IMG/VR virus record: IMGVR_UViG_3300032296_000823
Coordinates: 1-20,184 of that record
From: a virus
Direction: 5' to 3' (one strand)
DNA: 20,184 bases
Notes under the pieces: model-generated
Database searches by the model: none
Seen by the model: only the letters and a program-made list of their open reading frames with translations
What the model was told of the DNA's origin: nothing
Shown: in pieces, positions 1 through 13,087 of the stretch
Layout: every line of letters starts with the position of its first letter
How positions within the stretch are numbered: the stretch's first letter is position 1
Translations under genes and position numbers: made by a program

Positions 1-2157
1 GCTGCAGGTGCGGCTGGGCAGGTTTTGGTTTCTGGCGGCACTGGAGCGCCCACCTGGGGCTCTGCGCTGATTGTATCTGATCAGGCTGCAAATGTGGTCT
101 ATGCTGGCCCGACAAGCGGGCCTGATGCTCCCACGTCCTTCCGGCTTTTGGTCACTGATGACCTGCCATCCTCGGGTGTTGTCGCGGCAACGTATGGCGC
201 GGCGGCGACGGTTCCGGTCTTCACGGTAAACGCCAAGGGGCAGATTACGGCGGTCACCAATACGGTGATCGCCATTGATGCCTCTCAGATTACGGCCGGC
301 ACTCTTGCGGTTGCTCGGGGAGGCACTGGCCTTTCGACAACGCCAGCCAATGGCGAGATTGATATTGGCAATGGCACTGGCTTCACGCGCACGACGCTGA
401 CTGGCTCCAGTGGCATATCAATCACCAATGGCGCCGGCAGCATTTCCGTTGGCAATTCTGGGGTGCTTTCTTTCAGTGGCGGCACTACGGGCCTCACGCC
501 TGCGAGCCCCACCACGGGTGGCGTGACGCTTGCTGGCACTCTTAATGTGGCCAATGGCGGCTCTGGTGCCGCGACGCTTAGTGGCTACCTGAAGGGCAAT
601 GGAACCAGTGCATTTACTGGCTCTGCCACCATCCCCAATACCGACATCACCGGCCTCGGCACGATGTCTACGCAGAATGCGTCTTCCGTTGCGATTACCG
701 GCGGGACTGTAAACGGCACGTCAATCGGCGCGACCACGCCGGCTGCGGGTACGTTTACCTCTGTTGGGATGACGAGCGGCACGATTACGACTGCGCCATC
801 TTCCGGCAATGACATCGTCAATAAGACCTATGCCGATTCTATTGCGGCGGGCATCAATTTTCACCAGTCTTGCCGTTTGGCTACGACTGCCGCGCTTCCG
901 AGCAATACCTACAACAATGGCGTTTCTGGGGTTGGCGCGACGCTTACTGCTACGGCGAATGGCGCCCTGTCGGTTGACAGCACTGCAGTGGCGGCGACCA
1001 ATCGTATCTTGGTCAAGAATGAAGTCAATCAGGCTTACAATGGCGTTTATGTCGTCACCCAAACGGGCAGCGCGGGTTCGCCGTTTATTCTGACCAGGGC
1101 GACTGATTTTGACACTGCTGGGTCTGGCGTTGATCAGATTGATGCCGGCGACTTCTTTCTTATTACTGCCGGATCTACCCTGGCCAATACTTCTTGGGTG
1201 CAGCAGACGCCGCTGCCCATTACGGTTGGCACGACGGGGATTGTGTTTTCTCAGTTTGGCGCGCCGCTGACTTATTCTGCCGGCACGGGCCTGACTGAGT
1301 CGCCGGCATACACGTTCAACATTGCCAATACTGGCGTTGTCTCTGGCAGTTATGGCGGCGCGGCGACTGCCATGACGCTGAGCATCAATGCCCAGGGGCA
1401 GATTACTAGCGCCACAGACGTTTCGATTGCAATCAATGGCAACCAGATTACGTCTGGCACTGTCGGGTCTGCCTACATCAGCGGATCTTACACGGGCATC
1501 ACAGGTGTTGGGACGCTGACTTCAGGCACTTGGAATGCCACCACCATGGGCGTTGCCTATGGCGGCACTGGCCTGACGTCTTATGCGGTTGGCGATTTGA
1601 TTTATGCCAGCGGCACGACGACGCTTTCCAAATTGGCTGACGTTGCCACTGGCAATGCGCTGATTTCTGGGGGTGTGGGCGTCGCGCCGTCATATGGCAA
1701 GATTGGCCTCACCACGCATATTACTGGCACTTTGGCTGTCGGAAATGGCGGCACTGGATTGGCTACGCTTACGGGTTCAAACAGGGCGCTGTATTCAACG
1801 TCTTCAAGTACATTGACTGCAGGAACCTTGCCGGCTGCTGCCGGTGGGACAGGCAATTCATCATATACTGCTGGCGACATCCCGTATGCGTCTGCGACTA
1901 CCACGATTTCAAAGCTCGCTATTGGCACAGTCGGTACGGTTCTGACTTCTACCGGCACTGCGCCATCTTGGGCGGCGCAGTCCACCTTAGCGGTTGGCAC
2001 GGCCACCAATCTTGCGGGTGGGGCTGCCAGTCAGGTGCCTTATCAGACGGGTGCCGGGGCGACTGCCTTTGTTGCCAATGGCACGGCTGGTCAGGTGTTC
2101 AAATCAAATGGCGCAAGCGCGCCGACGTGGGCCAATATTGATGGGGGCACATTCTGA
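1..2157 (+). CDS. Tail fibre protein, 5'-truncated by the window edge
   Basis: The frame is open from base 1 to a TGA at 2155-2157 (718 codons visible), so the true start lies upstream. The TTG at 25 is not a credible start because the upstream codons continue the same motif. The protein is a long, Gly/Thr/Ser/Ala-rich, cysteine-poor beta-repeat polypeptide. GGTG or GGSG motifs recur near 319, 556, 1561, 1747 and 1842, which is typical of trimeric phage tail fibre shafts. GQIT..QIT segments repeat near 235-300 and 1393-1455. A GQV-x-x-S/N-G-x-APTW motif appears at the left edge and again before the C-terminal NIDGGTF. A non-repetitive segment around 817-1250 may be a folded shaft or knob domain. 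Inferred role: host recognition as a virion fibre. The anchor domain is not visible, so its attachment point is unknown. Confidence 0.85.
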   Translation, partial: AAGAAGQVLVSGGTGAPTWGSALIVSDQAANVVYAGPTSGPDAPTSFRLLVTDDLPSSGVVAATYGAAATVPVFTVNAKGQITAVTNTVIAIDASQITAGTLAVARGGTGLSTTPANGEIDIGNGTGFTRTTLTGSSGISITNGAGSISVGNSGVLSFSGGTTGLTPASPTTGGVTLAGTLNVANGGSGAATLSGYLKGNGTSAFTGSATIPNTDITGLGTMSTQNASSVAITGGTVNGTSIGATTPAAGTFTSVGMTSGTITTAPSSGNDIVNKTYADSIAAGINFHQSCRLATTAALPSNTYNNGVSGVGATLTATANGALSVDSTAVAATNRILVKNEVNQAYNGVYVVTQTGSAGSPFILTRATDFDTAGSGVDQIDAGDFFLITAGSTLANTSWVQQTPLPITVGTTGIVFSQFGAPLTYSAGTGLTESPAYTFNIANTGVVSGSYGGAATAMTLSINAQGQITSATDVSIAINGNQITSGTVGSAYISGSYTGITGVGTLTSGTWNATTMGVAYGGTGLTSYAVGDLIYASGTTTLSKLADVATGNALISGGVGVAPSYGKIGLTTHITGTLAVGNGGTGLATLTGSNRALYSTSSSTLTAGTLPAAAGGTGNSSYTAGDIPYASATTTISKLAIGTVGTVLTSTGTAPSWAAQSTLAVGTATNLAGGAASQVPYQTGAGATAFVANGTAGQVFKSNGASAPTWANIDGGTF
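1561..1758 (+). repeat. Fibre module repeat, copy 1
   Basis: This 198-base in-frame module starts and ends at a GGTG motif and contains LYAS/IYAS, SKLADVATGNALISGGVGVAP and GLTTH elements. It matches 2406-2603 in the next fibre gene without indels. By eye, 11 of 66 residues differ, with many additional silent changes. A more degenerate third copy begins near 1842 (GGTGNSSYTAGDIPYAS). Confidence 0.85.
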
Positions 2158-2219
2158 TGATTGACGAAATGGTTGCTCTTCAACTGAAAACTCAGTACAA
2201 ATCAGGGAACCTGAGGTAA
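2157..2219 (+). CDS. 20-aa mini-ORF between two fibre genes
   Basis: An ATG overlaps the fibre stop codon by one base (TGATG) and opens a 20-codon frame, MIDEMVALQLKTQYKSGNLR, ending at TAA 2217-2219, three bases before the next fibre start. The string GGGGGC about ten bases upstream could serve as a weak ribosome binding site. The end of this frame contains the AGGTAAG that serves the 276-aa fibre gene. It may be a real micro-protein, a coupling leader, or a leftover of a gene start. A very similar fibre end with TGATGA occurs at 9012-9029, where the ATG starts the nozzle gene. I do not recognise the peptide. Confidence 0.35.
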   Translation: MIDEMVALQLKTQYKSGNLR

Positions 2220-2222
2220 GCC

Positions 2223-3053
2223 ATGGCACAGACTGGTTACACCCCAATCCAGTTGTATCGCACTACAACTGCTAGTGCGACGCCTATTGCTGGCAATTTG
2301 GCGGACGGCGAGCTTGCCATCAACACGACTGACGAGAGGCTTTACTTCAAGAATGCCGGCGGCACGGTAAAGCTTCTTGCGGCTAATGTTACCCCTGCAG
2401 CAAATGGTGGAACGGGCCAATCGTCTTACACGGTTGGTGATTTGCTTTATGCGAGCGGGTCTACCACGCTGTCTAAATTGGCCGATGTTGCGACTGGGAA
2501 TGCCCTCATTTCCGGCGGCGTTGGCGTGGCGCCCTCTTGGGGTAAGGTTGGCCTGACGACGCACGTCAGTGGCACGCTGCCTGTCGCCAATGGCGGCACT
2601 GGCACTGCCACGGCCTTCACCTCCGGGTCTGTTGTCTTCGCTGGCGCCAGTGGCGTTTACAGCCAAGACAATTCCAATCTTTTTTGGGACGACACAAATA
2701 ATCGCCTGGGCGTTCGCACGGCGACCCCTGCGGTATCTTTGGCGATTTCTGCGACTGACGCCATCCTAGTGCCTGTGGGAACCACCGCGGAGCGTCCTAC
2801 GGGCGCCACGGGCTATTTGCGGTTCAACAGTAGCACCACAAGCTTTGAAGGCTACAATGGCACCGCATGGGGCTCCATTGGCGGTGGCGCGACGGGTGGC
2901 GGCACGGATCAGGTGTTCTATCTGAATGGTCAGACCGTGAATACCAGCTACTCAATTCCTGCCGGCCAGAATGCCGGTTCGTTTGGACCAATCACTGTGG
3001 CGAGCGGCGCGACTGTGACCGTTCCTTCAGGCTCAACTTGGACGGTGACATAA
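2223..3053 (+). CDS. Short tail fibre protein (276 aa)
   Basis: The N-terminus carries a typical phage fibre opening, GELAINTTDERLYFKNAGGTV (about residues 29-49), followed by GGTG modules (about residues 62-127) shared with the upstream fibre. A TTAERPTGATGYLRFNSST-type strip (about 186-204) comes next. The C-terminal region has DQVFYLNGQTV, YSIPAGQNA and VPSGSTW motifs, common in fibre tips of many unrelated phages. The start is supported by AGGTAAG just upstream. It is shorter than a full fibre and has no obvious anchor domain, so it may be a distal subunit that assembles on the larger fibre. Assignment to a fibre is firm; its position in the virion is inference. Confidence 0.82.
   Translation: MAQTGYTPIQLYRTTTASATPIAGNLADGELAINTTDERLYFKNAGGTVKLLAANVTPAANGGTGQSSYTVGDLLYASGSTTLSKLADVATGNALISGGVGVAPSWGKVGLTTHVSGTLPVANGGTGTATAFTSGSVVFAGASGVYSQDNSNLFWDDTNNRLGVRTATPAVSLAISATDAILVPVGTTAERPTGATGYLRFNSSTTSFEGYNGTAWGSIGGGATGGGTDQVFYLNGQTVNTSYSIPAGQNAGSFGPITVASGATVTVPSGSTWTVT
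2406..2603 (+). repeat. Fibre module repeat, copy 2
   Basis: Second copy of the 198-base fibre module, colinear with 1561-1758 from GGTG to GGTG. The amino-acid sequence is largely conserved while many codon third positions differ. This suggests an old duplication or independent acquisition with selection on the protein. Confidence 0.85.
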
Positions 3054-3054
3054 G

Positions 3055-3654
3055 ATGCCCGTAAAGCTCAATTCAACTGGCGGTGGCTCTGTCACCCTGA
3101 CCACGCCCAGCACGGCAGCAGATTACACTGCCACCTTCCCGGCAGGCACTGGGAACGTGGTGGTGGCAGGAAGCTCTAGTGCTTTGACTCAAGGCACCGT
3201 GCAGGCCAGCACCAGTGGCACCAGCATTGACTTTACTGGCATTCCGTCTTGGGTAAAGCGCATTACGGTTATGCTCAGTGGTGTTTCTACTAGCGGTACG
3301 TCCTCATTGCGTTTTCAGTTGGGAGACAGCGGAGGTATTGAAAATACTGGTTATGCAAGCAATGCGCTCACAAGCAGCACTAGCGCGGCGGTAAACACAG
3401 CAAACAGCACGGCAGGCTTTGATGGCGGCTCTATTGCATCTTCATCAAATGTGCTTAATGGCGCTTTGGTTTTAACAAACGTCACTTCAAATACTTGGGT
3501 TTGCCAAGGAAGCATTTCTAATACGGGCGATTCAAGGTTTATGTCTATTAGTGGCGGGAAAAGTCTATCAGATACTTTGACGCAAGTTCGCATCACGACT
3601 GTCAATGGCACCGACACCTTTGATGCGGGTAGCATCAACATCATTTACGAGTGA
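3055..3654 (+). CDS. Fibre tip protein A (199 aa), paralogue of the protein at 4623-5213
   Basis: The ATG follows the previous stop by one base. The N-terminal stretch (residues 1-40, VTLTTPSTAADYTATFPAGTG) is a common phage fibre segment. From about residue 51, QASTSGTSIDFTGIPSWVKRI, the protein matches the 196-aa protein at 4623. The two diverge through the middle and match again at the C-terminus (VRITTVNGTD, FDAGSINI, YE). The conserved ends with a different centre suggest a receptor-binding domain whose exposed part has changed while the scaffold stayed fixed. The central part looks AT-richer than the flanks by eye. No catalytic motif is visible. Confidence 0.75.
   Translation: MPVKLNSTGGGSVTLTTPSTAADYTATFPAGTGNVVVAGSSSALTQGTVQASTSGTSIDFTGIPSWVKRITVMLSGVSTSGTSSLRFQLGDSGGIENTGYASNALTSSTSAAVNTANSTAGFDGGSIASSSNVLNGALVLTNVTSNTWVCQGSISNTGDSRFMSISGGKSLSDTLTQVRITTVNGTDTFDAGSINIIYE
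3586..3614 (+). repeat. 29-base exact repeat in fibre tip genes, copy 1
   Basis: These 29 bases, running from GTTCGCATC to CACCGA, are identical to 5145-5173. They encode the conserved VRITTVNGT strand at the C-terminus of both tip paralogues. Such a repeat could support homologous exchange between the two genes. Confidence 0.9.
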
Positions 3655-3662
3655 GGTAAGCA

Positions 3663-4178
3663 ATGCCCATCACCATCTCAGGCTCCACAGGTATCGCGGG
3701 TGTTGACGGCTCTGCCTCCACTCCAGCCCTTCAAGGAACCGACACAAACACTGGCGTTTATTTTGGCGCTGATACGATTTCCTTCTCTGAGGGTGGAGCC
3801 CTTGTTGGGCAGTTTGATAGTAGCGCAAACTTCCGATTCAACTCCGGCTACGGCTCTGTTGCCACAGCGTATGGATGCCGGGCTTGGGTAAACTTCAATG
3901 GTACCGGGGCGGTGGCGATTAGGGCAAGCGGGAATGTCACCAGCATTACGGATTTTGCCACTGGCGATTACCAAGTAAATATAACTAACGCCATGCCTGA
4001 CGCAAATTACGCCTTTCAAGTAGTAGCGCAACGAAACTCGGCGGGCCTTAATTTCGCTGTGCCAGCGGGGCAGGCTTCATCATTATACCAAACCGCATCT
4101 ACCTTCAGGGTTTTAACGTACAATTCTGCTTTTAGTAATGAAGACGCTCAAGCTGTTTTATGTGCAGTTTTCCGCTGA
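3663..4178 (+). CDS. Fibre tip protein with WVNFNGTG-type domain (171 aa)
   Basis: The start is supported by GAGGTAAG just upstream, nearly the same translation signal as at 2223. The N-terminus (residues 1-50, TISGSTGIAGVDGSASTPAL, NTGVYFGADTISFSEGG) is a widespread fibre segment. Residues about 72-115 (CRAWVNFNGTGAVAIRASGNVTSITD, GDYQVNITNAMPDANYAF) form a compact beta domain that ends many phage fibres. The last 35 residues or so appear unrelated to the other tips, and their DNA looks AT-richer by eye. Inferred role: distal receptor binding. It could equally be an adhesin subunit loaded onto the main fibre. Confidence 0.78.
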   Translation: MPITISGSTGIAGVDGSASTPALQGTDTNTGVYFGADTISFSEGGALVGQFDSSANFRFNSGYGSVATAYGCRAWVNFNGTGAVAIRASGNVTSITDFATGDYQVNITNAMPDANYAFQVVAQRNSAGLNFAVPAGQASSLYQTASTFRVLTYNSAFSNEDAQAVLCAVFR

Positions 4179-4190
4179 CAGGATTTAGCC

Positions 4191-4391
4191 ATGAACCAAC
4201 GCATCATATTCCCTACAGACGAAGGCGGTGTTGCTGTCATCATCCCTGCCCCCGAATGCGGCCTGACGATTGAAGAAATCGCCGCCAAGGATGTGCCAGA
4301 GGGCAAGCCATACAAGATTGTGGATGTTACTGACATCCCGTCAGACCGCACCTTCCGCAACGCTTGGACCTATGTGGAGGATGAACAATGA
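4191..4391 (+). CDS. Small fibre-associated protein (66 aa)
   Basis: An acidic small protein with IIFPTDEGGVAVIIP at the N-terminus and EEIAAKDVPEGKPYKIVDV then IPSDRTFRNAWTY toward the C-terminus. From memory, similar proteins sit directly beside fibre genes in many phages, often in pairs with the next type of protein. That placement suggests an assembly factor or a small fibre-associated subunit, but no function is established here. Its stop overlaps the next start (ATGA, 4388-4391), so the two are probably translated together. AGGAT upstream may be the binding site. Confidence 0.7.
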   Translation: MNQRIIFPTDEGGVAVIIPAPECGLTIEEIAAKDVPEGKPYKIVDVTDIPSDRTFRNAWTYVEDEQ

Positions 4392-4621
4392 TCCGAATTG
4401 ACATCACCAAAGCCAAGGTCATCGCGCATGATATGCGCCGTGCGGCCCGTGCTGTTGAGTTTGCTCCGCATGATGAGGTGATTGCCAAGCGCATCCCCGG
4501 CACTGCGGAAGCAGATGCAGAAGCCGCCCGGCAGGCAATTCGTGATAAGTATGCGGCGGTGCAAATTGCCATTGATGCGGCTACGACACCAGATGAAATC
4601 AAGGCTGCGTTAGGAGCTTAA
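4388..4621 (+). CDS. Putative tail fibre assembly chaperone-like protein (77 aa)
   Basis: A mainly helical, charged protein. It opens MIRIDITKAKVIAHDMRRAAR, then has EVIAKRIPGTAEADAEAARQAI and ends with DAATTPDEIKAALGA. Proteins of this general shape next to fibre genes are usually annotated as tail (fibre) assembly chaperones; the link here is by resemblance and position. It overlaps the preceding gene by four bases. Its last codons contain the GGAG that likely serves the next gene at 4623. It separates the two paralogous tip genes, so it may have moved together with one of them as a cassette. Confidence 0.65.
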   Translation: MIRIDITKAKVIAHDMRRAARAVEFAPHDEVIAKRIPGTAEADAEAARQAIRDKYAAVQIAIDAATTPDEIKAALGA

Positions 4622-4622
4622 A

Positions 4623-5213
4623 ATGTCCACCCTACAATCCACCAACCTGAAGCATGAATCTTCTGCGACAAACAACATTGTCCTGGATGCGAGTGGAAAT
4701 ACCGCAATTCAAGGCACGTTACAGGTTGGCGGAGTGGCTACGAACATTTATCCTCTGGTTTCTGGAACCTCGCAAGCCAGCACCAGCGGTACGTCCATTG
4801 ACTTTACTGGAATCCCGTCTTGGGTAAAACGCATCACGATTATGTTTAATGGGGTCAGCACAAATGGCACCAGCGTAAAATTGGTTCAGATTGGCGCCGG
4901 ATCAGTAACAACAAGTGGATATCTTTCTAGTTCCACAACCACAGGCACAACTTCAGCAACAACTACTACTGCGGTTGGTTATGCTTTTGGCACTAATAGT
5001 TCGGTAGACGCAATCGGTGGAATTATGACGATAGCGAGTTTTGGAAGTAATGTGTGGGTGTCTAGTCATGCTGCATACGCAAACTCTACCCCACAAGGGG
5101 TTTTTGGAGGCGGTACCGTTACTCTTTCCGGCACTCTTGATCGCGTTCGCATCACGACTGTCAATGGCACCGATGCGTTTGACGCCGGGTCCATCAACAT
5201 CCTGTACGAGTGA
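4623..5213 (+). CDS. Fibre tip protein B (196 aa), paralogue of the protein at 3055-3654
   Basis: The first 50 residues (LQSTNLKHESSATNNIVLDASGN, GTLQVGGVAT) form a common fibre N-terminal segment that differs from that of tip A. From about residue 52, QASTSGTSIDFTGIPSWVKRI, the two tips align. The centre (about residues 80-165) is unlike tip A and rich in Ser/Thr. The end returns to VRITTVNGTDAFDAGSINILYE. The DNA of the centre (about 4860-5130) looks AT-richer than the flanks by eye. A good Shine-Dalgarno (GGAG) lies at the end of the upstream gene. Likely an alternative or second receptor-binding tip. Confidence 0.75.
   Translation: MSTLQSTNLKHESSATNNIVLDASGNTAIQGTLQVGGVATNIYPLVSGTSQASTSGTSIDFTGIPSWVKRITIMFNGVSTNGTSVKLVQIGAGSVTTSGYLSSSTTTGTTSATTTTAVGYAFGTNSSVDAIGGIMTIASFGSNVWVSSHAAYANSTPQGVFGGGTVTLSGTLDRVRITTVNGTDAFDAGSINILYE
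5145..5173 (+). repeat. 29-base exact repeat in fibre tip genes, copy 2
   Basis: Identical to 3586-3614 and located at the same place in the paralogous tip gene. It marks where sequence similarity resumes after the variable centre. Confidence 0.9.
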
Positions 5214-5221
5214 GCATCAAA

Positions 5222-5362
5222 ATGAAACTCGAACTCACCATCACCGAAATCAATTCGGTGCTCCAGGCGCTGGGCAACATGCCCTACGCTCAGGTGTTTG
5301 AGCTCGTAGAGAAAATCCGCGCCCAAGCAAAAGAGCAGCTGGAAGAGCCTGCCCAAAAGTGA
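5222..5362 (+). CDS. Small conserved phage-type protein (46 aa)
   Basis: A 46-codon frame from ATG 5222 to TGA 5360-5362. It begins MKLELTITEINSVLQALGNM and continues PYAQVFELVEKIRAQAKEQL. From memory, short proteins with this pattern (LELT..E.N..L..LG..P...V..L..KI) are found near lysis and tail genes of many phages, function unknown. It is probably a small two-helix protein with a charged tail. It sits 8 bases after tip B and 4 bases before the membrane-anchored protein at 5367. It has no strong Shine-Dalgarno and may rely on coupling. Confidence 0.7.
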   Translation: MKLELTITEINSVLQALGNMPYAQVFELVEKIRAQAKEQLEEPAQK

Positions 5363-5366
5363 CGAG

Positions 5367-5831
5367 ATGGAACTTCCCAAGCTCACTCCGGTAATTCAAT
5401 TTGCGACAGCCAGTTTTGCGCTGGCCGTTGGCGGCTACACGGCCGGCGAAAAGTTTGGCTGGTTCAAGAATGAAATCATCTCCTGGGCGCCAGAGCATTT
5501 CAGAATTGTCGATACCAAGATTGGGCAGCCCGTTACGGTAACAGTGGCGCGGATCAAAAAGCGCGACGACTGTTCTGTGGAAAACTTTGAGGTGACTATT
5601 CGCGACGGCACTGGTGTTATCCACCCTGCTACCCCAAGTATGACCCGGTTTACCGGCCCCGCAGGCCCTGAGATCGACACTTTTACCTATTTGCTGGATA
5701 TCTCAGACAAGGAAACCATAGCCCCTGGCCGGGCAACGCTCCTGGCCACGATCAAATACAAATGTCCTGAAGGTGAACGGACTGTTACCTATCCCCGGCA
5801 CCAGAACCTGACCTTTATGCTGGAGAAGTGA
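5367..5831 (+). CDS. Unknown protein with an N-terminal membrane segment (154 aa)
   Basis: I do not recognise this protein. Residues about 7-26 (TPVIQFATASFALAVGGYTA) are moderately hydrophobic and may form a membrane anchor or uncleaved signal. The remainder looks like a soluble beta-rich domain, with VTVTVARI, FEVTIRDG, FTYLLDI and ATLLATIKY strands and two cysteines. It lies immediately before the holin, so a role in lysis or in the envelope (spanin-like, antiholin or superinfection exclusion) is possible. No lipobox or classical spanin features were seen. The start at 5367 leaves only four bases after the preceding stop. Confidence 0.7.
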   Translation: MELPKLTPVIQFATASFALAVGGYTAGEKFGWFKNEIISWAPEHFRIVDTKIGQPVTVTVARIKKRDDCSVENFEVTIRDGTGVIHPATPSMTRFTGPAGPEIDTFTYLLDISDKETIAPGRATLLATIKYKCPEGERTVTYPRHQNLTFMLEK

Positions 5832-5832
5832 C

Positions 5833-6351
5833 ATGGAAAGCCTGCTGAACCTTGTGCGCACGGTCGCTCCAAGCATCGCCAGCGCCGTGGGGGGCCCCTT
5901 GGCTGGCATGGCCACCAGGGCGATTTCTGAGGCCCTGCTGGGCAAGCCAGACGGCACTGAGCAGGAGCTTGCCGAGGCCGCATCCAAGGCCACCCCAGAT
6001 CAGTTGCTGGCCCTCAAGCAGGCCGAGCAAGATTTTGCCGTGAAGATGCGCGAATTGGATATTGACCTGGAGCGGATTGCTAATGCTGACCGCGACAGCG
6101 CACGGAACCGGGAAGTGGCCGCCAAGGACTGGACCCCGCGTGTCCTAGCCGGGCTGGTTACGGGCGGTTATTTTGGGGTGCTGTTTTACATGTTGATCAA
6201 TGGCCTTCCAACGCATGGCGGGTCTGAGGCCATGTTGGTGATGCTTGGCACTTTGGGGACGGCCTGGGGTGGCATTATGGCATACTATTTTGGCTCCTCC
6301 GCCGGCAGTAAAGAGAAAACAGACGCGATGAATAGGATGGCTCGCAGATGA
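5833..6351 (+). CDS. Holin, three-TM gene-transfer-agent type
   Basis: Forms membrane lesions that release the endolysin at the end of infection. Residues about 8-28 are a hydrophobic N-terminal segment. A charged helical region follows (about 40-100: EQELAEAASKATPDQLLAL, DFAVKMRELDIDLERI). Two strong membrane helices then occur at about 103-125 (RVLAGLVTGGYFGVLFYMLI) and 132-155 (AMLVMLGTLGTAWGGIMAYY). The C-terminal YYFGSSAGSKEKT is the signature of the GTA_holin_3TM family. The length of 172 aa fits the family. GGAG lies upstream, and the gene ends with an ATGA overlap with the muramidase, the usual holin-lysin pairing. Confidence 0.9.
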   Translation: MESLLNLVRTVAPSIASAVGGPLAGMATRAISEALLGKPDGTEQELAEAASKATPDQLLALKQAEQDFAVKMRELDIDLERIANADRDSARNREVAAKDWTPRVLAGLVTGGYFGVLFYMLINGLPTHGGSEAMLVMLGTLGTAWGGIMAYYFGSSAGSKEKTDAMNRMARR

Positions 6352-6887
6352 GTGAATTGTTCCCCAAGGTTCTTAAATCTGTTCTGAAGCACGAGGGGCT
6401 GTGGAGCGACCACAGGGATGATCCCGGCGGCGCCACTATGAAGGGCGTGACGCTCCAGACGTATTCCGACTGGCTCGGGCGGCCGGCAAGCAAAGATGAA
6501 TTGCGCAACATCCCAGATGACCACTTGGAGGCCATCTACCGCAAGGGATATTGGGCCAAGATCCGAGGCGATGAGCTTGCCGAGATCTCGCCTGGGCTTG
6601 CGGCGTGCGCTTTTGACTTTGCGGTGAACAGCGGCCCAGGCCGGGCTGCCAAGGCCCTCCAGAGCCTTTGTGGGGCGGTTACGGATGGCGCGATTGGGCC
6701 CAACAGCCTGAAGCAGATAAAGGCCTGGGTCGGGATCCTTGGCCATAAAAGCGCAATTGAGGCCTTCCAGGCGTTTCGCCAGCATTACTTGGAGAGCCTG
6801 GACACCTTCGCTACTTTCGGCCGGGGTTGGACCCGGCGCGTTGTAGAAGTGCGGGAAGAGGCCCTCAAATTGTCTGCGGGGGCCTGA
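6348..6887 (+). CDS. Endolysin, glycoside hydrolase family 108 muramidase
   Basis: Cleaves peptidoglycan glycan strands during lysis. The N-terminal GH108 signature is present: HEGLWSDHRDDPGGATMKGVT (residues 15-35), with E16 as the expected catalytic acid and DPGG at 25-28. YRKGYWAKIRGDEL (64-77) and FDFAVNSGPGRAAKALQ (89-105) are also typical. A C-terminal peptidoglycan-binding-type part has DGAIGP (113-118) and FGRGWTRRV (157-165). The length of 179 aa matches the family. There is no signal peptide, so export should depend on the holin at 5833-6351, with which it overlaps by four bases. In the family the second residue after the catalytic Glu is usually Gly-Gly or Gly-Tyr; here it reads EGLW, a mild variation. 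Confidence 0.93.
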   Translation: MSELFPKVLKSVLKHEGLWSDHRDDPGGATMKGVTLQTYSDWLGRPASKDELRNIPDDHLEAIYRKGYWAKIRGDELAEISPGLAACAFDFAVNSGPGRAAKALQSLCGAVTDGAIGPNSLKQIKAWVGILGHKSAIEAFQAFRQHYLESLDTFATFGRGWTRRVVEVREEALKLSAGA

Positions 6888-6904
6888 ATATTCTCGGCAG
6901 TAAA

Positions 6905-6939
6905 TTGCCTTGCCTTAGCTATGAGGCAGGGGCTATATT
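6905..6939 (+). promoter_or_regulatory. Candidate sigma70-like promoter ahead of the adaptor gene
   Basis: TTGCCT at 6910-6915 and TATATT at 6934-6939 are separated by 18 bases. An additional TTGCCT lies at 6905-6910. This is the only gap of about 100 bases in the window and the only clear place for a new transcript serving the genes from 6994 onward. The match is decent but found by eye, and the -35 element lies inside a hairpin, so activity is uncertain. Confidence 0.35.
6908..6931 (+). terminator. Hairpin, weak terminator candidate after the lysis genes
   Basis: A nine-pair stem with two G-T pairs (CCTTGCCTT with GAGGCAGGG) and a six-base loop lies 20 bases after the muramidase stop. It is not followed by a convincing T-run (GCTATATTTG), so it may be a weak or partial terminator, or an RNA-processing site. 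It overlaps the candidate promoter. Confidence 0.3.
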
Positions 6940-6993
6940 TGAAAAACGGCGCAAGCTGAAGCAGCTGCGGAGAGTAAATCCGGCGGAGTCAGC

Positions 6994-7626
6994 ATGGCGT
7001 ATGTAATGACCTACGACAGTTTGCTGGTCGATCTGCGACGTTATCTTGAGCGTGGCTTTACGCAGGAAAGCGACCAGATTGTCTACGACCAGTTGCCTCG
7101 CCTTATCACATTGGGCGAGCGTCGGATTGCGCGCGAGCTGAAGATTGAGGGCTTTATTCGTGCCGTGCAGACGCCGCTTCAGAGTGGCGTTGCGGTCTAC
7201 TTGAAGCCAGATCGGTGGCGCGACACTGTCAGCATGACGCTTAATGGTGCGCCAATTTTTGCCCGGTCTTACGAGTATTGCCGCAACTATTGGCCGAATG
7301 AGGCCCAAACTGGCACCCCGCAGTTTTATGCCGACTATGACTTCCAGCACTGGCTGCTTGCGCCGACGCCTGACGCGGCCAGCACTCTGGAGATTTTGTA
7401 TTACGAGCAGCCTGCGCTGTTGGGTGAAGAGTTGCAGACGAATTGGCTGACGGAATATGCGCCTGATTTATTGCTCTACGCGGCGCTGTTGGAGGCGACG
7501 CCATTCTTGAAGAGCGACGAGCGCATGCAGACTTGGCAGGCTTTGTATGACAGGGCGGCTCAGGCCATTAGCGGCGAGGATCTGAAGCGCATCATGGATC
7601 GCAGCGCCAACAGGAGTGAAGCCTGA
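6994..7626 (+). CDS. Head-tail adaptor protein, SU10-adaptor type
   Basis: Mostly helical N-terminus with LLVDLRRYLERG, QLPRLITLGERRIARELKI (about residues 35-53). This pattern recalls the adaptor proteins of SU10-like short-tailed phages that sit between portal and tail. A middle beta part follows (VYLKPDRWRDTVSM, QFYADYDFQHWLLAPTPD) and a helical C-terminus (DLLLYAALLEATPFLKSD). The length of 210 aa fits. The start has GGCGGAG seven bases upstream. It is followed by a fibre gene with a TGATG overlap and then by the nozzle-like gene, which fits a neck/tail module. The family assignment is from memory of the motif and not from a search. Confidence 0.7.
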   Translation: MAYVMTYDSLLVDLRRYLERGFTQESDQIVYDQLPRLITLGERRIARELKIEGFIRAVQTPLQSGVAVYLKPDRWRDTVSMTLNGAPIFARSYEYCRNYWPNEAQTGTPQFYADYDFQHWLLAPTPDAASTLEILYYEQPALLGEELQTNWLTEYAPDLLLYAALLEATPFLKSDERMQTWQALYDRAAQAISGEDLKRIMDRSANRSEA

Positions 7627-9026
7627 TGACTATCTACACCGACGTTTTCGGCGGCGCTAATATCTACCCGAGTGAAATCAGCTACAGCTCAATCGCGCTT
7701 TCTGCTGATGTGACGCTCAGCTGGCCGGAAGAGACTTCCACCAATACCAATCTAGCGACTAGGATTATTGACGTCACGCCGGCATCTTCCGGTTTGAGCA
7801 TCATCCTGCCGGATGCCAACAAGACTGGCACTGGCAATACGATCCTCTTCAATAACCGCGGCGGGAGCACGTTTACTGTCAAGAATGCCGTCGGCACGCA
7901 GGTTGTCACGATTGCGGGCGGCGAGTTGTGGCAGGTTTATGTTGCCAGCAACACGACAGCGGCCGGCACTTGGCGGTCTTTGCAGTATGGCGCGGCGGCG
8001 AGTGTCGCGAATGCCTCTGCCCTGGCCGGCAATGGGATTGTCGCGGTTGGCACTCTTCTCAGCCAGTCTGTTCCGGTCACGACGTTTAACAGCAACTACA
8101 CGTCTGGCACTGCTGACCGCGCCCTCATGTACAATTGGACTGGCGCGGCTGGGGTGTTTACGCTGCCGGATCCTGCAGTGGTGGGGAATAATTGGTTTCT
8201 CTACCTGCGCAATTCAGGCACGGGCGCCATTGTGGCGACGCCGCCGGGCATTGTCACGATTGATGGGTCTGCGACGCTCAGTTTCCAGCCGGATGAGTCG
8301 GCCATCATTGTTTCGGATGGCACCAACTTCCACACCATTGGATTTGGGCAATCTGCGACTTTCGCGTTTGACTATACTGTCATTAGTGTTGCCGGAACTG
8401 GCACCTACACGCTGACAGGGTCTGAGCTCAATCGCATTGCGTACCGATTTACTGGCGTGTTGACTGGCAATCGTATTGTCGTCGTTCCGGCGACCATTCA
8501 GCAGTATTGGGTCGATAACCAGACGACTGGCGCGTTTACGTTTACGATTGCGCCATCTGGCGGTGGCTCTAGCGTCAGCATTGCCCAGGGCTCTCGTTCT
8601 ATCCTCTATTGCGATGGAACTGACGTTCTTGAGGCCGACACTGCCGGCGTGTCTTTTCCGATTACTATCGGTCAAGGCGGCACGAATGCCACCACGGCGA
8701 GCGGCGCGCGGATTAACCTAGGCGGCACTTCGACTGGGATTGCGCTCTTTACTGCCGCCGATCAGAATGCCGCCATGAGTGCCTTGGGCGGCACTGCGAC
8801 TGGCATTGCGGTGTTTACGGCTGCCAGCCAGAGTGCTGGCCGCACTGCCTTGGGTGCGACTACGACGGGCAGTGCCCTGTTTACTGCTGCCAGCCAGAGT
8901 GCTGGCCGCACTGCCTTGGGTGCGACTACGACGGGCAGTGCGCTGTTTACTGCAGTAGATCAGGCCGCGGCTTGGACTGCCTTGGGTGTCGCCCAGGCCG
9001 GCAATATCAATGGCGGCACGTTCTGA
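7626..9026 (+). CDS. Virion-anchored tail fibre protein (466 aa)
   Basis: The N-terminal part (about residues 1-130: TDVFGGANIYPSEISYSSI, VTLSWPEETSTNTNLATRII, GNTILFNNRGGSTFTV) resembles the anchor domain of fibres in aquatic short-tailed phages, where it precedes variable shafts. Beta-rich central modules follow, each ending in a statement like FTLPDPAVVGNNWFLYLRN or FTIAPSGGGSSV. The C-terminal region begins IGQGGTNATTASGARINLGG and has four tandem 22-residue repeats (8727-8990), ending NINGGTF. The start overlaps the adaptor stop by one base and has AGGAG upstream. Its position between adaptor and nozzle suggests that it binds the neck or tail directly. Confidence 0.82.
   Translation: MTIYTDVFGGANIYPSEISYSSIALSADVTLSWPEETSTNTNLATRIIDVTPASSGLSIILPDANKTGTGNTILFNNRGGSTFTVKNAVGTQVVTIAGGELWQVYVASNTTAAGTWRSLQYGAAASVANASALAGNGIVAVGTLLSQSVPVTTFNSNYTSGTADRALMYNWTGAAGVFTLPDPAVVGNNWFLYLRNSGTGAIVATPPGIVTIDGSATLSFQPDESAIIVSDGTNFHTIGFGQSATFAFDYTVISVAGTGTYTLTGSELNRIAYRFTGVLTGNRIVVVPATIQQYWVDNQTTGAFTFTIAPSGGGSSVSIAQGSRSILYCDGTDVLEADTAGVSFPITIGQGGTNATTASGARINLGGTSTGIALFTAADQNAAMSALGGTATGIAVFTAASQSAGRTALGATTTGSALFTAASQSAGRTALGATTTGSALFTAVDQAAAWTALGVAQAGNINGGTF
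8727..8990 (+). repeat. Four tandem 66-base (22-aa) repeats in the fibre C-terminus
   Basis: Units start at 8727, 8793, 8859 and 8925, each with the pattern T-x-TG-x-A-x-FTA-x-x-Q-x-A-x-x-x-ALG. Bases 8820-8875 and 8886-8941 are identical over 56 positions, so at least one duplication is recent. The repeats likely form a regular shaft or trimerising segment. Confidence 0.95.
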
Positions 9027-10870
9027 TGAAGGCAACGACTGTCATCCTCAAGTCTGCGGCGGGCATTAAGCGTGACGGTACGCGCTTTGAGGGCGACAAT
9101 TATGTTGACGGCCAGTGGGTGCGGTGGCAGCGCGGCTTGCCTCGCAAGATTGGCGGCTATCGTTCTGTTCAAAAATATCTAAGCGAAATCAGCCGCGGCT
9201 TTTCCACATTCACTCAGGGTGGGTTTGTTTACTGCCATTCTGGCAGTGAGAATTACCTTGAGCGGTTCACGATTGATGGAAGCTTCAACAGCTCGGTTGT
9301 GACTGACAGGACGCCTATCAATGTGGCCGCGACTGCGACGGTGACATTGACTGGCGGCGCTGCTGGGTCTGTGAATATGATCACGGTTGACGGCGTCAAC
9401 ATCATGTCTGGGTCTGTCGCCTTCACGACGAACTTATCGACCACGGCGACTGCAGTTGCGGCCAACATCAATGCCCACACGTCTGTGCCGGAATACACGG
9501 CGGCGGCCGTCGGCCCAATCATCACGATCAGTGCGGCGGCTGCAGCTGGGTCGGATCCCAATAGCTACCAAGTGGTGGTCACGACCACCACCATCACAGA
9601 GACGCACACTGACATGGCCGGCGGGTCATTTGCCTACACGGCAAGCGCCGACAATGTCTGGATGTTTGACTATCAGTATGAATCGTCTTCAAACCAAAAC
9701 TACATCCTTGCGCATGCCGCCCCGAATTTGAGTTGCATCTGCAATGACCAGGGTGGCCAGATTTTCTATGGCGATGTTTTGGGGACGAATAAGCTGAAGT
9801 CCATTTCGCTGCCGGCCGATGCAAATGCCACGGGCGGCATTGTCTCCCTGCACCCCTATTTGTTTTACTACGGCACTGATGGGATTATTGGCTGGTCCAA
9901 GCCTGGGGAGCCGACAGAGCTTCGCGATACGGCTGCAGGCGCCGGATTGGCGCGCGTGTGGGGCCAGAAGATCATCAAGGGCCTCCCCTTGCGCGCTGGT
10001 TCTGGGAGTGCCCCTGCGGGCATCTTCTGGGCATTTGATGCGGTCATCCGCGCCACCTTCACCGGCGGCGCTTCCATATTCCAGTTTGACGTGGTCGCGA
10101 CTGACACGTCTATTTTGTCTCCCACCTGCGTCATTGACTATGATGGCGTGTTTTTCTGGTGTGGCGTTGACCGTTTCATGATGTTCAATGGCGTGGTGCG
10201 TGAAGTGCCAAACAATATGAATATCAATTACTTCTTCGACGGTCTTAACAAATCACAGCAGAATAAGGTCTTTGCCTTTAAGGTGCCTCGGTATGGCGAG
10301 ATTTGGTGGTGCTACCCGCGTGGCGATGCCACCGAATGCACGCATGCCGTCATCTACAATGTCCGCGAAAACACTTGGTACGACACTGAGTTGCCGAATG
10401 GCGGGCGTTCTGCCGGCCAGTTTGCAAACTCCTTTGCGGCGCCGGTTCTGACGGGCGTCACTCAGAATGTGGACGGCTATAAGGTTTGGGTGCAGGAGCA
10501 GTTGACTGACGAGTATGATGGGCCGAACATCTTCCCCATCCAGTCATACTTTGAGACTGCCGACTTGTCGCAGTTGGTTCAGGGTCAGAACGAGTATTTG
10601 CGGATCACGACGATTGAGCCTGACTTTGTGCAGCGCGGCGCGATGACTGTGCAAGTTACTGGCCGAGCAAATGCAAGGGCTCCAGAGGTTTACAGCACAA
10701 TCTTCACGTTCCCTGAGAACCCATCCACGCCACATGAACAGATTGTCATGCTCAAGGAGCAGCGCCGTGAATTGCGGGTGCGATTTGAAAGCAATGAAGT
10801 CTATGGCGATTATCAGATGGGCCAGATCATTGGCCATATGTCTGTGGGCGACAGGACGGTACTGGGATGA
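9026..10870 (+). CDS. Tail nozzle-like / stabilisation structural protein (614 aa)
   Basis: The start at ATG 9026 overlaps the fibre stop (TGATG). An upstream ATG at 8972 would add 18 residues read out of frame through the fibre repeats and is rejected. The N-terminus, ILKSAAGIKRDGTRFEGDNYVDGQWVRWQRGLPRKIGGYR (residues 7-46), is characteristic of a large structural protein in aquatic podovirus-like phages, in the style of P22 gp10-like or nozzle proteins with a beta-propeller body. Later motifs include GGIVSLHPYLFYYGTDG, FWCGVDRFMMFNG and EIWWCYPRGDATECTHAVIYNV. Residues about 104-200 look like an inserted domain (see separate entry). Likely forms the tail tube end or sheath of the short tail. 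The exact fold assignment is inference. Confidence 0.65.
   Translation: MKATTVILKSAAGIKRDGTRFEGDNYVDGQWVRWQRGLPRKIGGYRSVQKYLSEISRGFSTFTQGGFVYCHSGSENYLERFTIDGSFNSSVVTDRTPINVAATATVTLTGGAAGSVNMITVDGVNIMSGSVAFTTNLSTTATAVAANINAHTSVPEYTAAAVGPIITISAAAAAGSDPNSYQVVVTTTTITETHTDMAGGSFAYTASADNVWMFDYQYESSSNQNYILAHAAPNLSCICNDQGGQIFYGDVLGTNKLKSISLPADANATGGIVSLHPYLFYYGTDGIIGWSKPGEPTELRDTAAGAGLARVWGQKIIKGLPLRAGSGSAPAGIFWAFDAVIRATFTGGASIFQFDVVATDTSILSPTCVIDYDGVFFWCGVDRFMMFNGVVREVPNNMNINYFFDGLNKSQQNKVFAFKVPRYGEIWWCYPRGDATECTHAVIYNVRENTWYDTELPNGGRSAGQFANSFAAPVLTGVTQNVDGYKVWVQEQLTDEYDGPNIFPIQSYFETADLSQLVQGQNEYLRITTIEPDFVQRGAMTVQVTGRANARAPEVYSTIFTFPENPSTPHEQIVMLKEQRRELRVRFESNEVYGDYQMGQIIGHMSVGDRTVLG
9335..9625 (+). 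other. Inserted beta-type domain within the nozzle-like protein
   Basis: Residues about 104-200 (TVTLTGGAAGSVNMITVDGV, NLSTTATAVAANINA, EYTAAAVGPIITISA) have a composition and pattern seen in many phage fibre and decoration segments. They are unlike the aromatic-rich sequence on either side (LERFTIDGSFNSSVVTD before and NVWMFDYQYESSSNQNYI after). The segment may be an added surface domain. Boundaries are approximate. Confidence 0.55.
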
Positions 10871-11100
10871 GCATTCGCGTCACTCTCCCTACTGGGCTTG
10901 GGTTGCGGGATTGGGCAGATCAGATTGCCTTGGACCTTGATCCTTATGGCACCTTTGGGCGTCTGGACATTGAGGATCAGTGGCAGAATTGGGCCATGCA
11001 GTTTCTCAATAATATGACGCTCAAAGAAAATTTCCCAATCCCCTATTATTTCGATAATTGGCAGGAATGGGCCGAGCGTTTTTGTCAGGCTTTGGAGTAG
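10867..11100 (+). CDS. Small unknown virion-region protein (77 aa)
   Basis: Overlaps the nozzle-like gene by four bases (ATGA). It opens MSIRVTLPTGLGLRDWADQI and is rich in aromatic residues (Trp in LRDWADQ, QWQNWAMQF, NWQEWAERF). The repeated W-x-x-W/F spacing suggests an amphipathic helical protein. I do not recognise a family. By position it is probably a minor structural or assembly protein translated with the nozzle gene. Confidence 0.7.
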   Translation: MSIRVTLPTGLGLRDWADQIALDLDPYGTFGRLDIEDQWQNWAMQFLNNMTLKENFPIPYYFDNWQEWAERFCQALE

Positions 11101-11104
11101 CGAT

Positions 11105-13087
11105 ATGGCGATGATCCGCGATCAAATTATGCAGATGGCTCAGTCTGACCCAAGCTTCTCTCAGGCGATAGACGCCATGGAGAAGGCGGTCATCAATATG
11201 CCCGTTACTCCAGAGGATCTGGGGGAAATCATTGCCCTCTTGGAGTTTGTGATCCAGAACCCCGACAAGTATGGCGAGGTTCGTCAGGCGGCGATTGAAG
11301 ACGAAGAAATTGACGAGAATACGCTGCCGCCTCAGTTTGATCCGATTTACATCATTTCGCTTTTGGTTGCGCTGTATGGCCTGCAGGATCGTCTGCAAGA
11401 GCAGGGTTATGCCCGTGGTGGCCTGACTGTCGCGGCGCGGCGTGTGCAGGCTGCCGGGCGTGGCGGCGATACAATCCTGGCGCACATAAACCCCCAAGAG
11501 GCGGAAATGCTGCGCCGAGCTGGTGGCTCTGGCACAATCAATCCCCAAACTGGCCTGCGCGAATACAAGCCGTTCTGGAAGAAAAAGAATTTTGGTCTAG
11601 GATCTAGTCTTGGTCCAGTCCTCGCGGCAGCTGCGCCGATTGTTTTAAGCATTGTCGCCCCAGGCATTGGCACGGCGATCGGCACGAGTATCGCAGGCGG
11701 CCTTTTCGGGGGCACTGCCATGGCTGGCTTGGTGCCATATATTGCGCCCGCCCTCGGCGGTGCTCTTCTTGGCGCCGGCTCGTCTGCACTGACTGGCGGT
11801 AATCTAATGCAGGGCGCCTTGACTGGCGCAATTGGCAGTGGCCTGGGCAATGTTCTTGGCCAGGGCATTACCTCTGGCTTGGGCCTGGGATTGGGTGAAA
11901 CCGCCTCAAATATTTTGGGCGGCACTATTCTCGGCTCGGGTGCCTCGGCTATTCAAGGCCGCAACCCGTTTAGCGGTGCTCTGCGTGGTGCGTTGGGCGC
12001 AGGCATTGGCGCTATCGGCAAAGAATTTGCTGGCGACATTGCTGGCTTTGGTCCTGGCGCTGGCGGCACTGAGGGCATTAAGCGCGGCATTGAGGCAGGC
12101 ACCTCGGGCTTTGGCACTGGCCTGACTGCCGGGATGGATCCAAAGCAGGCGGCGGCGGCCGGCGTTCTGTCTGGCTTGGCCTCTGGGCTTATCAAGCCAT
12201 CCCAATCTGTGGTTCAGAATATGCAGAACCAACCCCAAAGCTTTGAAGAGGCCATGGACCGTCAAGCCATGCAGGCTGCTGGCATGGTAAGCGGACCCGG
12301 TGGCACTCCGATGAATGCTCCTGGCTCTACTGGCGTTTTACCGGATGGGCGGCCGGGCGTTTACCAATTGAATGCCCAAACTGGCCAAGTGTCATTGGTT
12401 CCTGTTCCTGGCTCGTATCAATTGAACCCGCAAACCAATGCCGTTGAATTTGTAAGGCAAGAACAAGGCCCACTGGCTCGGCTGCTTAATCAACCCGCAG
12501 TGCCGGCAACGACTGGAGCCCCCGCAGCTGGCGGCGGCCAGTCTTCTGGCCTGGGCAACCTTCTCGGCGGCAATCTTGCGCCTCTTCTTGCGGGTGGCGC
12601 GCTGTTGGCATCACAGGGTGGCGGGCAGCCTCAAGCCGCCCCGCCACAAACGCGAGCGTTGCCGGCCGCGCAGCAGGAATACATCAACCGTCCGGGCGTT
12701 GTCTGGGATTGGGCCAGGATGCAGCGCGATGCGACAGCAAGCAATCTGACGCTTGATCAATTCATGGCGCGCAATTGGCCGAGGGTGACGTCTGGCGAAT
12801 ACAATGCCGCTCCGATGGCGCAGGGTGGCCTGAGCATGGTGTCTCGTTTTGTAAGGGGCGGCGGCACTGGCCGATCAGACGAAATCAGTGCCAAACTTTC
12901 TGATGGCGAATATGTGATTGACGCCGAGACTGTCGCGATGCTTGGCGACGGATCTAGTAAGGCTGGCGCAAAAAAGTTAGATGAAATGCGCAACCAAATC
13001 CGGCAACATAAGGGTAGGGCGCTGGCCAAGGGTAAGTTTAGCCCTGACGCCAAGTCGCCCCTGACATATCTGAAGGGGGTCGCATAA
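11105..13087 (+). CDS. Internal virion / ejection protein 1 (660 aa)
   Basis: Residues 1-115 are acidic and helical (MIRDQIMQMAQSDPSFSQ, LGEIIALLEFVIQNPDKYGE). From about 150 to 360 the protein is a very Gly/Ala-rich hydrophobic region (GPVLAAAAPIVLSIVAPGIG, GALTGAIGSGLGNVLGQGI), as in membrane-active ejection or tape-measure-like proteins. A linker with two YQLN-x-QT motifs follows. The C-terminus (about 599-660: SDGEYVIDAETVAMLGDGSS, KKLDEMRNQIRQHKG) is a conserved motif of internal virion proteins in aquatic phages. Likely packaged in the capsid and injected to help DNA cross the envelope. TGGAG lies upstream of the start. The next gene begins inside its stop (TAATG). Confidence 0.72.
   Translation: MAMIRDQIMQMAQSDPSFSQAIDAMEKAVINMPVTPEDLGEIIALLEFVIQNPDKYGEVRQAAIEDEEIDENTLPPQFDPIYIISLLVALYGLQDRLQEQGYARGGLTVAARRVQAAGRGGDTILAHINPQEAEMLRRAGGSGTINPQTGLREYKPFWKKKNFGLGSSLGPVLAAAAPIVLSIVAPGIGTAIGTSIAGGLFGGTAMAGLVPYIAPALGGALLGAGSSALTGGNLMQGALTGAIGSGLGNVLGQGITSGLGLGLGETASNILGGTILGSGASAIQGRNPFSGALRGALGAGIGAIGKEFAGDIAGFGPGAGGTEGIKRGIEAGTSGFGTGLTAGMDPKQAAAAGVLSGLASGLIKPSQSVVQNMQNQPQSFEEAMDRQAMQAAGMVSGPGGTPMNAPGSTGVLPDGRPGVYQLNAQTGQVSLVPVPGSYQLNPQTNAVEFVRQEQGPLARLLNQPAVPATTGAPAAGGGQSSGLGNLLGGNLAPLLAGGALLASQGGGQPQAAPPQTRALPAAQQEYINRPGVVWDWARMQRDATASNLTLDQFMARNWPRVTSGEYNAAPMAQGGLSMVSRFVRGGGTGRSDEISAKLSDGEYVIDAETVAMLGDGSSKAGAKKLDEMRNQIRQHKGRALAKGKFSPDAKSPLTYLKGVA

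Follow-up and report, generated by a model that had tools for sequence, protein, structure and literature searches.

We found that two short fibre-like proteins of an environmental phage end in a domain whose centre varies strongly between conserved edges. Exchange of this centre in natural populations is directly supported by sequence comparison with relatives. As a whole, the data are very probably best explained by a small array of fibre tips in which cassettes encoding the centre are exchanged by recombination across the conserved edges, the centre being the part that would contact the receptor.

The DNA analysed here (the window) is the whole virus record of 20,184 bp, which holds only part of the genome. 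A search of the phage isolate collection gave no near DNA relative of it. Fibre-like genes stand in a row at positions 25-5213; behind them come a possible lysis region, with an endolysin at 6348, and then virion genes. Two of the fibre-like genes, located on the same strand, encode protein A (ORF 3055-3654, 199 aa) and protein B (ORF 4623-5213, 196 aa). The original prediction held that the two proteins share both ends and differ in the middle. Both ORFs were as described, and A and B aligned over 158 residues with 51% identity (E=2e-35). The common part corresponds to a C-terminal domain of ~155 aa, in which amino acid identity was 86% in the N-edge, 23% in the centre and 83% in the C-edge. 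The shared ends are thus those of the C-terminal domain and not those of the protein, as the first ~44 aa of A and B are unlike and represent two different anchor modules. Differences between the two centres fall at all bases and include indels. Nevertheless, scaffold residues (GY, G, G, N.W and G) are kept here and there, indicating that the centres are homologous but very divergent rather than unrelated. The longest exact word common to the two genes, between the C-edge of A and B, was 29 bp. No Pfam family was above the cut-off for A or B. Both matched the C-terminal part of phrog_29482 (positions 333-474 of 477), whose function is uncharacterised, so that a match to its end gives no functional clue. 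The segments are listed in Table 1.

Table 1. Segments of proteins A and B and neighbouring features in the window
Feature	Position	Strand	Remarks
A N-terminal anchor, residues 1-44, MPVKLNSTGGG type	3055..3186	+	Unlike B
A conserved N-edge, residues 45-83, QASTSGTSIDFTGIPSWVKRI...	3187..3303	+	Low column entropy; strands predicted at 57-61 and 69-79
A variable centre, residues 84-170	3304..3564	+	GC3 0.39; most columns at about 3 bits of entropy
A conserved C-edge, residues 171-199, ...VRITTVNGTDTFDAGSINIIYE, and stop	3565..3654	+	Low entropy
Further (third) small fibre protein, 171 aa, encoded between A and B; different C-terminal tip	3663..4178	+	phrog_11355 tail fiber protein, residues 72-171, 1.6e-19
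B N-terminal anchor, residues 1-45, MSTLQSTNLKHE type	4623..4757	+	DNA 93-100% identical to L005
B conserved N-edge, residues 46-84	4758..4874	+	Left breakpoints about 4860-4874
B exchanged centre, residues 85-167	4875..5123	+	GC3 0.29; nt identity 96% to L081, 40% to L005/L086
B conserved C-edge, residues 168-196, and stop	5124..5213	+	Right breakpoint about 5109-5142
Hypervariable island, A through B centre	3090..5126	+	Unlike L086 except B N-edge 4760-4861 (96%)

Copies of the domain were gathered from IMG/VR contigs by searches with A and B. This gave 235 copies including the two of the window, of which 199 were distinct; in one search, at least 595 candidate stretches of the domain were found among environmental phages. 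Every one of the 235 copies ends no more than one residue from the stop codon, the domain being always C-terminal. Two to four copies were present at 70 of 153 loci, some of which overlap on one contig. The mean column entropy of the 199 distinct copies was 0.75 bits in the N-edge, 2.38 bits in the centre and 0.69 bits in the C-edge. Site-wise variation was therefore low in both edges and high in the centre, and uniform divergence along the whole gene, named beforehand as speaking against the original prediction, was not seen. As the relatives had first been found with conserved peptides, which might bias the search, the conservation test was repeated on independent sets. Entropies of the N-edge, centre and C-edge were 0.98, 2.21 and 0.93 in 27 copies that contain none of the search peptides, and 1.30, 2.11 and 1.31 in 24 copies from phage isolates and bacterial genomes. 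A search with the centre of one allele alone returned 21 loci, all of them between the same edges. The recurrence of the same profile in these sets indicates that the pattern is not due to search bias or chance. In phage isolates of Rhizobium, Pseudomonas and Aminobacter, the domain ends fibre-like proteins in tail or lysis regions; Rhizobium phage RHph_N3_2 is one cultured example.

The original prediction raised exchange, or a reservoir for swapping, from the A/B pair, but the pair alone does not demonstrate exchange. Codon identity at shared edge residues was only 13/29 and 16/24, so the similarity of the A and B edges mainly reflects protein constraint, and the proof comes from comparing B with its relatives. 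B proved to be a three-part mosaic. Against L005, identity was 93-100% over the N-edge and over the ~450 bp that precede the domain, the match reaching about 300 bp upstream of the B anchor; identity fell to 40-50% in the centre and returned to 96-100% in the C-edge. Against L086, the N-edge was 100% identical over most of its length and the centre ~45%, and the C-edge together with most of the 600 bp downstream, through the downstream genes, was 93-100% identical. With L081, the centre alone was 93-100% identical (96% overall), whereas the edges were ~82% identical and the surroundings unrelated. The N-edge of B has one mismatch to L005 before the breakpoint and many differing sites to L081. 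A 29-mer of this N-edge was present in four other contigs, each with another centre, and the B centre was found in one other contig only, with other edges. Examined base by base, the three sequences switch at the B junctions inside exact shared runs of ~8 bp (left) and ~11 bp (right). Metagenomic variants that differ centrally inside near-identical edges, as anticipated, do therefore exist, B versus L005 and L086 being examples. Across genomes the two slots correspond, window B resembling the second copy of L005 and window A the first. Exact DNA searches with the N-edge and the centre of A gave no match, and no donor or exchange partner was found for A.

The window and the sister phage L086 are 95-98% identical over a stretch of ~10 kb. 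In blastn, the window matched L086 at 2137-3089 (96.1%), 4760-4861 (96.1%), 5127-8922 (95.4%) and 8783-12223 (97.6%). Over the ~10 kb aligned, two gaps exceeded 300 bp, the hypervariable island and one inside the first fibre gene. This first long fibre gene (window 25-2157, L086 77-2683) is itself a mosaic, with 532-1520 95.7% identical and about 1520-2137 replaced by an unrelated stretch. The gene just ahead of the B homologue in L086 (5457-5723) encodes a protein with a cupin domain (Cupin_2, 9.1e-07); in the window, an unrelated ORF of 77 aa (4388-4621) takes this place. Within the fibre-like gene at 7626-9026, the window appears to differ from L086 by about one 66-bp unit in the copy number of a tandem repeat (window 8721-8922; overlapping matches, L086 9911-10116).

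Exchange was also apparent in other pairs. Centres were 96-100% identical and edges 80-90% identical in L017/L030, L108/L144, L021/L026 and L061/L051, and the reverse case, similar edges with unlike centres, was found in L004/L006 and L102/L010. In most pairs, the fitted breakpoints fell at A-residues 69-84 and 166-184. Exceptions were L012/L001, two pairs with weak resolution, and L106, whose right border extends to the end. These alignments show that the breakpoints lie within the conserved edges. In synonymous-codon identity, centre and edges differed in 5 of the 100 pairs tested (p=7e-9 to 1.3e-4), and the centre was always the more identical. Edge-to-edge identity gave a rho of 0.36 and edge-to-centre identity a rho of 0.12 (bootstrap 95% of the difference, 0.13-0.32), the near saturation of centre identity being a limit on this comparison. 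In a nearest-neighbour test, the N-edge agreed with the C-edge in 20 of 45 cases and with the centre in 19 of 45, which does not separate the edges from the centre. The expected number of similar-centre pairs inside one genome was below 1, too few to judge whether a genome avoids carrying similar centres. Codon identity of the edges within a genome was higher, 0.48 versus 0.35. We do not read this as homogenisation of edges within genomes: from genome to genome the edges go with their slot, and a common codon usage can account for the difference.

Two further observations concern individual pairs. The two copies at L106 (8741-9488 and 9826-10465) have 84 identical bases before the domain and 117 inside it, and then diverge; this looks like a very recent event whose left border is still visible. 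In L017/L030 and L021/L026, the centre (about 100%) and most of the neighbouring DNA have diverged less than the edges (80-90%). One clean exchange of a cassette does not account for these pairs, and repeated partial exchange within the edges may have occurred.

The alleles of the centre are discrete. Among ~18,500 pairs of centres, nearly all showed 30-60% nucleotide identity, 33 were at or above 80%, and 3 were between 65% and 80%. Within alleles, the median dN/dS was 0.15 and the highest value 0.35, figures by which the alleles are judged to be under purifying selection. Together with the lack of a reverse transcriptase, template repeat or invertase described below, the bimodal identities and low dN/dS point to exchange of established alleles. 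It could be argued that no exchange took place, and that the edges are structurally constrained while the centre diverges rapidly in place by point mutation. The A/B pair taken alone, with its edge codon counts, is accounted for in this way, and scaffold residues are indeed still present in the centre. However, some centres are identical although their edges differ, some near-identical edges enclose different centres, the alleles are discrete, and the within-allele dN/dS is the opposite of fast point diversification. Divergence in place is contradicted for B and several other pairs, and could be the whole story for A; as a general explanation we regard it as quite improbable. Another reading is that metagenome assemblers fused different genomes at the conserved edges, taking into account that the mosaic contigs are all metagenome assemblies. 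We consider such an artefact highly improbable. The exact runs at the B junctions are shorter than usual assembly word lengths, the longest word common to A and B is no more than 29 bp, and the joins are repeated in separate records (L086 and L087; L012 to L015 and L084). The domain is also normal in sequenced isolates.

In the Bordetella phage protein Mtd, a diversity-generating retroelement acts on a variable receptor-binding part within a conserved scaffold. The domain studied here likewise carries a variable part within a conserved scaffold, and one isolate homologue is annotated as 'major tropism determinant', raising the possibility of programmed diversification by a retroelement or an invertible segment. 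Unlike Mtd, neither a template repeat nor adenine-directed change was found in the window, and no reverse transcriptase (RVT_1) was found in the window (0/1) or in 28 relatives (0/28), all of them partial records. Neither centre has a template copy in the window, where only self matches and 11-12 bp noise were detected, and the differences between A and B hit all bases with indels. Unlike the invertible tail-fibre segments of the Gin, Cin and shufflon systems, no inverted copies were present and no serine invertase, or any other resolvase/invertase family, was found in 26 records; A and B lie on the same strand. Programmed diversification is the explanation to which we give the least weight, close to none. 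Exchange of centres by recombination across the edges is the reading that we follow below.

The original prediction had noted by eye that the central DNA looked AT-richer, and this was confirmed at third codon positions. G+C at this position (GC3) was 0.39 in the A centre and 0.29 in the B centre, against 0.57-0.69 in their edges, and none of the 53 other same-sized coding windows of the contig was as low as either centre. Family-wide, the centre had a mean GC3 of 0.31, compared with 0.46 and 0.52 for the two edges and 0.47 for other genes. The direction of the shift was agreed by 89-96% of copies, and in ~54% the centre was among the lowest 5% of same-size windows in its own contig. The drop was seen for every amino acid with a usable count, and is thus not an amino-acid effect. 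Regressed on the composition of the genome, the edges gave slopes of 0.95-0.98 and the centre a slope of 0.53. We infer that centres pass between genomes faster than they adjust to each, and that mutation pressure is AT-biased. The slope of the centre, about half that of the edges, would then be a measurable trace of movement between genomes.

Centres were also found to move between slots and anchors. One centre allele occurred behind both A-type and B-type anchors. At the close loci (at least 68% identical) of the allele used in the centre-only search, several different N-terminal anchors were present, namely MSTLQSTNLKHE, MSTVSATNLKHA with an added stretch, two MPVKLNSSGGG forms, MSVIIDGSAS and MSILALTSNT. 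In L086, the gene at the position of A has the same MPVKLNSTGGG start followed by a glycine-rich tip, and the next gene begins with MPITISGSTGIAGVDGSA, as does the window protein at 3663, and again has a glycine-rich tip instead. These tips are related to tail-fibre families. As L086 keeps the starts of the proteins at 3055 and 3663 but carries other tips, whole tips are also exchanged on fixed anchors. The idea of exchange within a reservoir thus held for mosaic centres and for their movement between slots.

AlphaFold models of A and B had pLDDT values of 88 and 85, and in both of them the domain has about ten strands, in the same order. This agreement is not independent, because most of the alignment used was common to the two models. 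Two predicted strands lie in each edge and six of the ten in the centre. The exchanged part makes up more than half of the domain and combines core-type hydrophobic columns with highly variable columns, burial being judged from hydrophobic column patterns. The original prediction had pictured an exchanged surface. The centre is indeed swapped within a kept scaffold, but it is not a surface loop, comprising about 87 residues that include core-type positions. No solved structure matched either model at E<0.001. Weak matches for both were the galectin-like domain of Toxoplasma MIC1 and M2AP (probability 0.85-0.98, E 0.005-0.04, TM 0.3-0.46). Among predicted viral proteins, A had 89 matches at E<0.001, and most among the matches listed were unnamed or uncharacterised phage proteins. 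Exchange could proceed as described while the centre serves as a fibre cap or a decoration, or as a surface varied for reasons other than receptor binding; the lack of a Pfam family and the weakness of the matches to solved structures leave room for this. On the other hand, the domain is C-terminal on fibre-like proteins, beside other tail-fibre families, L086 puts glycine-rich tips on the same anchors, and the structural leads are weakly galectin-like. We regard a centre that does not bind receptors as unlikely, although less so than any of the alternatives to exchange itself, and judge that the tip centres are probably host-recognition surfaces.

Comparable systems are known. In the accounts of T-even phages given in PMC7468147 and PMC12529663 (citing Tetart, Desplats, Krisch 1998), recombination between conserved motifs of the gp38 adhesin swaps specificity. 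This adhesin is a separate protein, in which five glycine-rich motifs accompany four hypervariable segments (PMC12529663). The present domain resembles it in that conserved motifs flank a hypervariable part at the fibre tip and contain the breakpoints. It differs in having one central six-strand segment between two edges that are not glycine-rich, in a C-terminal domain that is often present in 2-4 copies per genome. A and B did not match the gp38 families, phrog_29482 being the only family matched, and no series of glycine-rich motifs was seen in their sequence. Among environmental phages, near-identical genomes are described as differing at host-recognition genes, with a pool of variants shuffled by recombination; in the passages of PMC3909814 and PMC7468147 that treat such metaviromic islands, the units that vary are genes, C-terminal regions or C1q domains, whereas here the unit is a central cassette inside one domain. 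C1q gave no Pfam match, and no C1q entry was among the structural matches listed. Phage recombinases reportedly recombine short diverged DNA, leaving mosaics flanked by 'HR traces' of ~80% identity (PMC3945230). Flanks of intermediate identity were likewise seen in window B/L081 and L108/L144. This relaxed homologous recombination is a general mechanism and not one specific to fibre tips (PMC3945230).

Taking these results together, we propose that A and B are two slots in a small array of short tail-fibre proteins, each with an anchor at its N-terminus and a beta-rich tip domain at its C-terminus. In the tip, conserved edge segments of about 110 and 90 bp of DNA enclose a central cassette that measures about 260 bp. 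If phages, related or even unrelated, share a cell, recombination across the edges, often only ~80% identical, may replace the centre while leaving the reading frame and the framing strands intact. Phage or host recombinases acting by general homologous recombination are the likely agent; no recombinase was identified in the contig, which is part of a genome. If the centre bears the receptor-contacting surface, its exchange would alter adsorption specificity, and two or more copies could provide either a wider set of recognised surfaces or stored alternatives.

The family, the sub-domain cassette with defined anchors, the traffic between slots and the composition signature appear to be new. 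The exchanged unit and its breakpoints can be placed within tens of bases, in a domain that has no Pfam entry and is common in environmental phages. More tentatively, and with somewhat less than even confidence, we suggest that a shared pool of ~260-bp AT-shifted centre cassettes circulates among unrelated phages of different G+C, jumping between slots and anchors by means of two short coding anchors. If this is true, the unit of host-range evolution would be the sub-domain cassette rather than the gene or the phage lineage. The sequence of the centre alone should sort phages by binding target, whatever the lineage of the genome.
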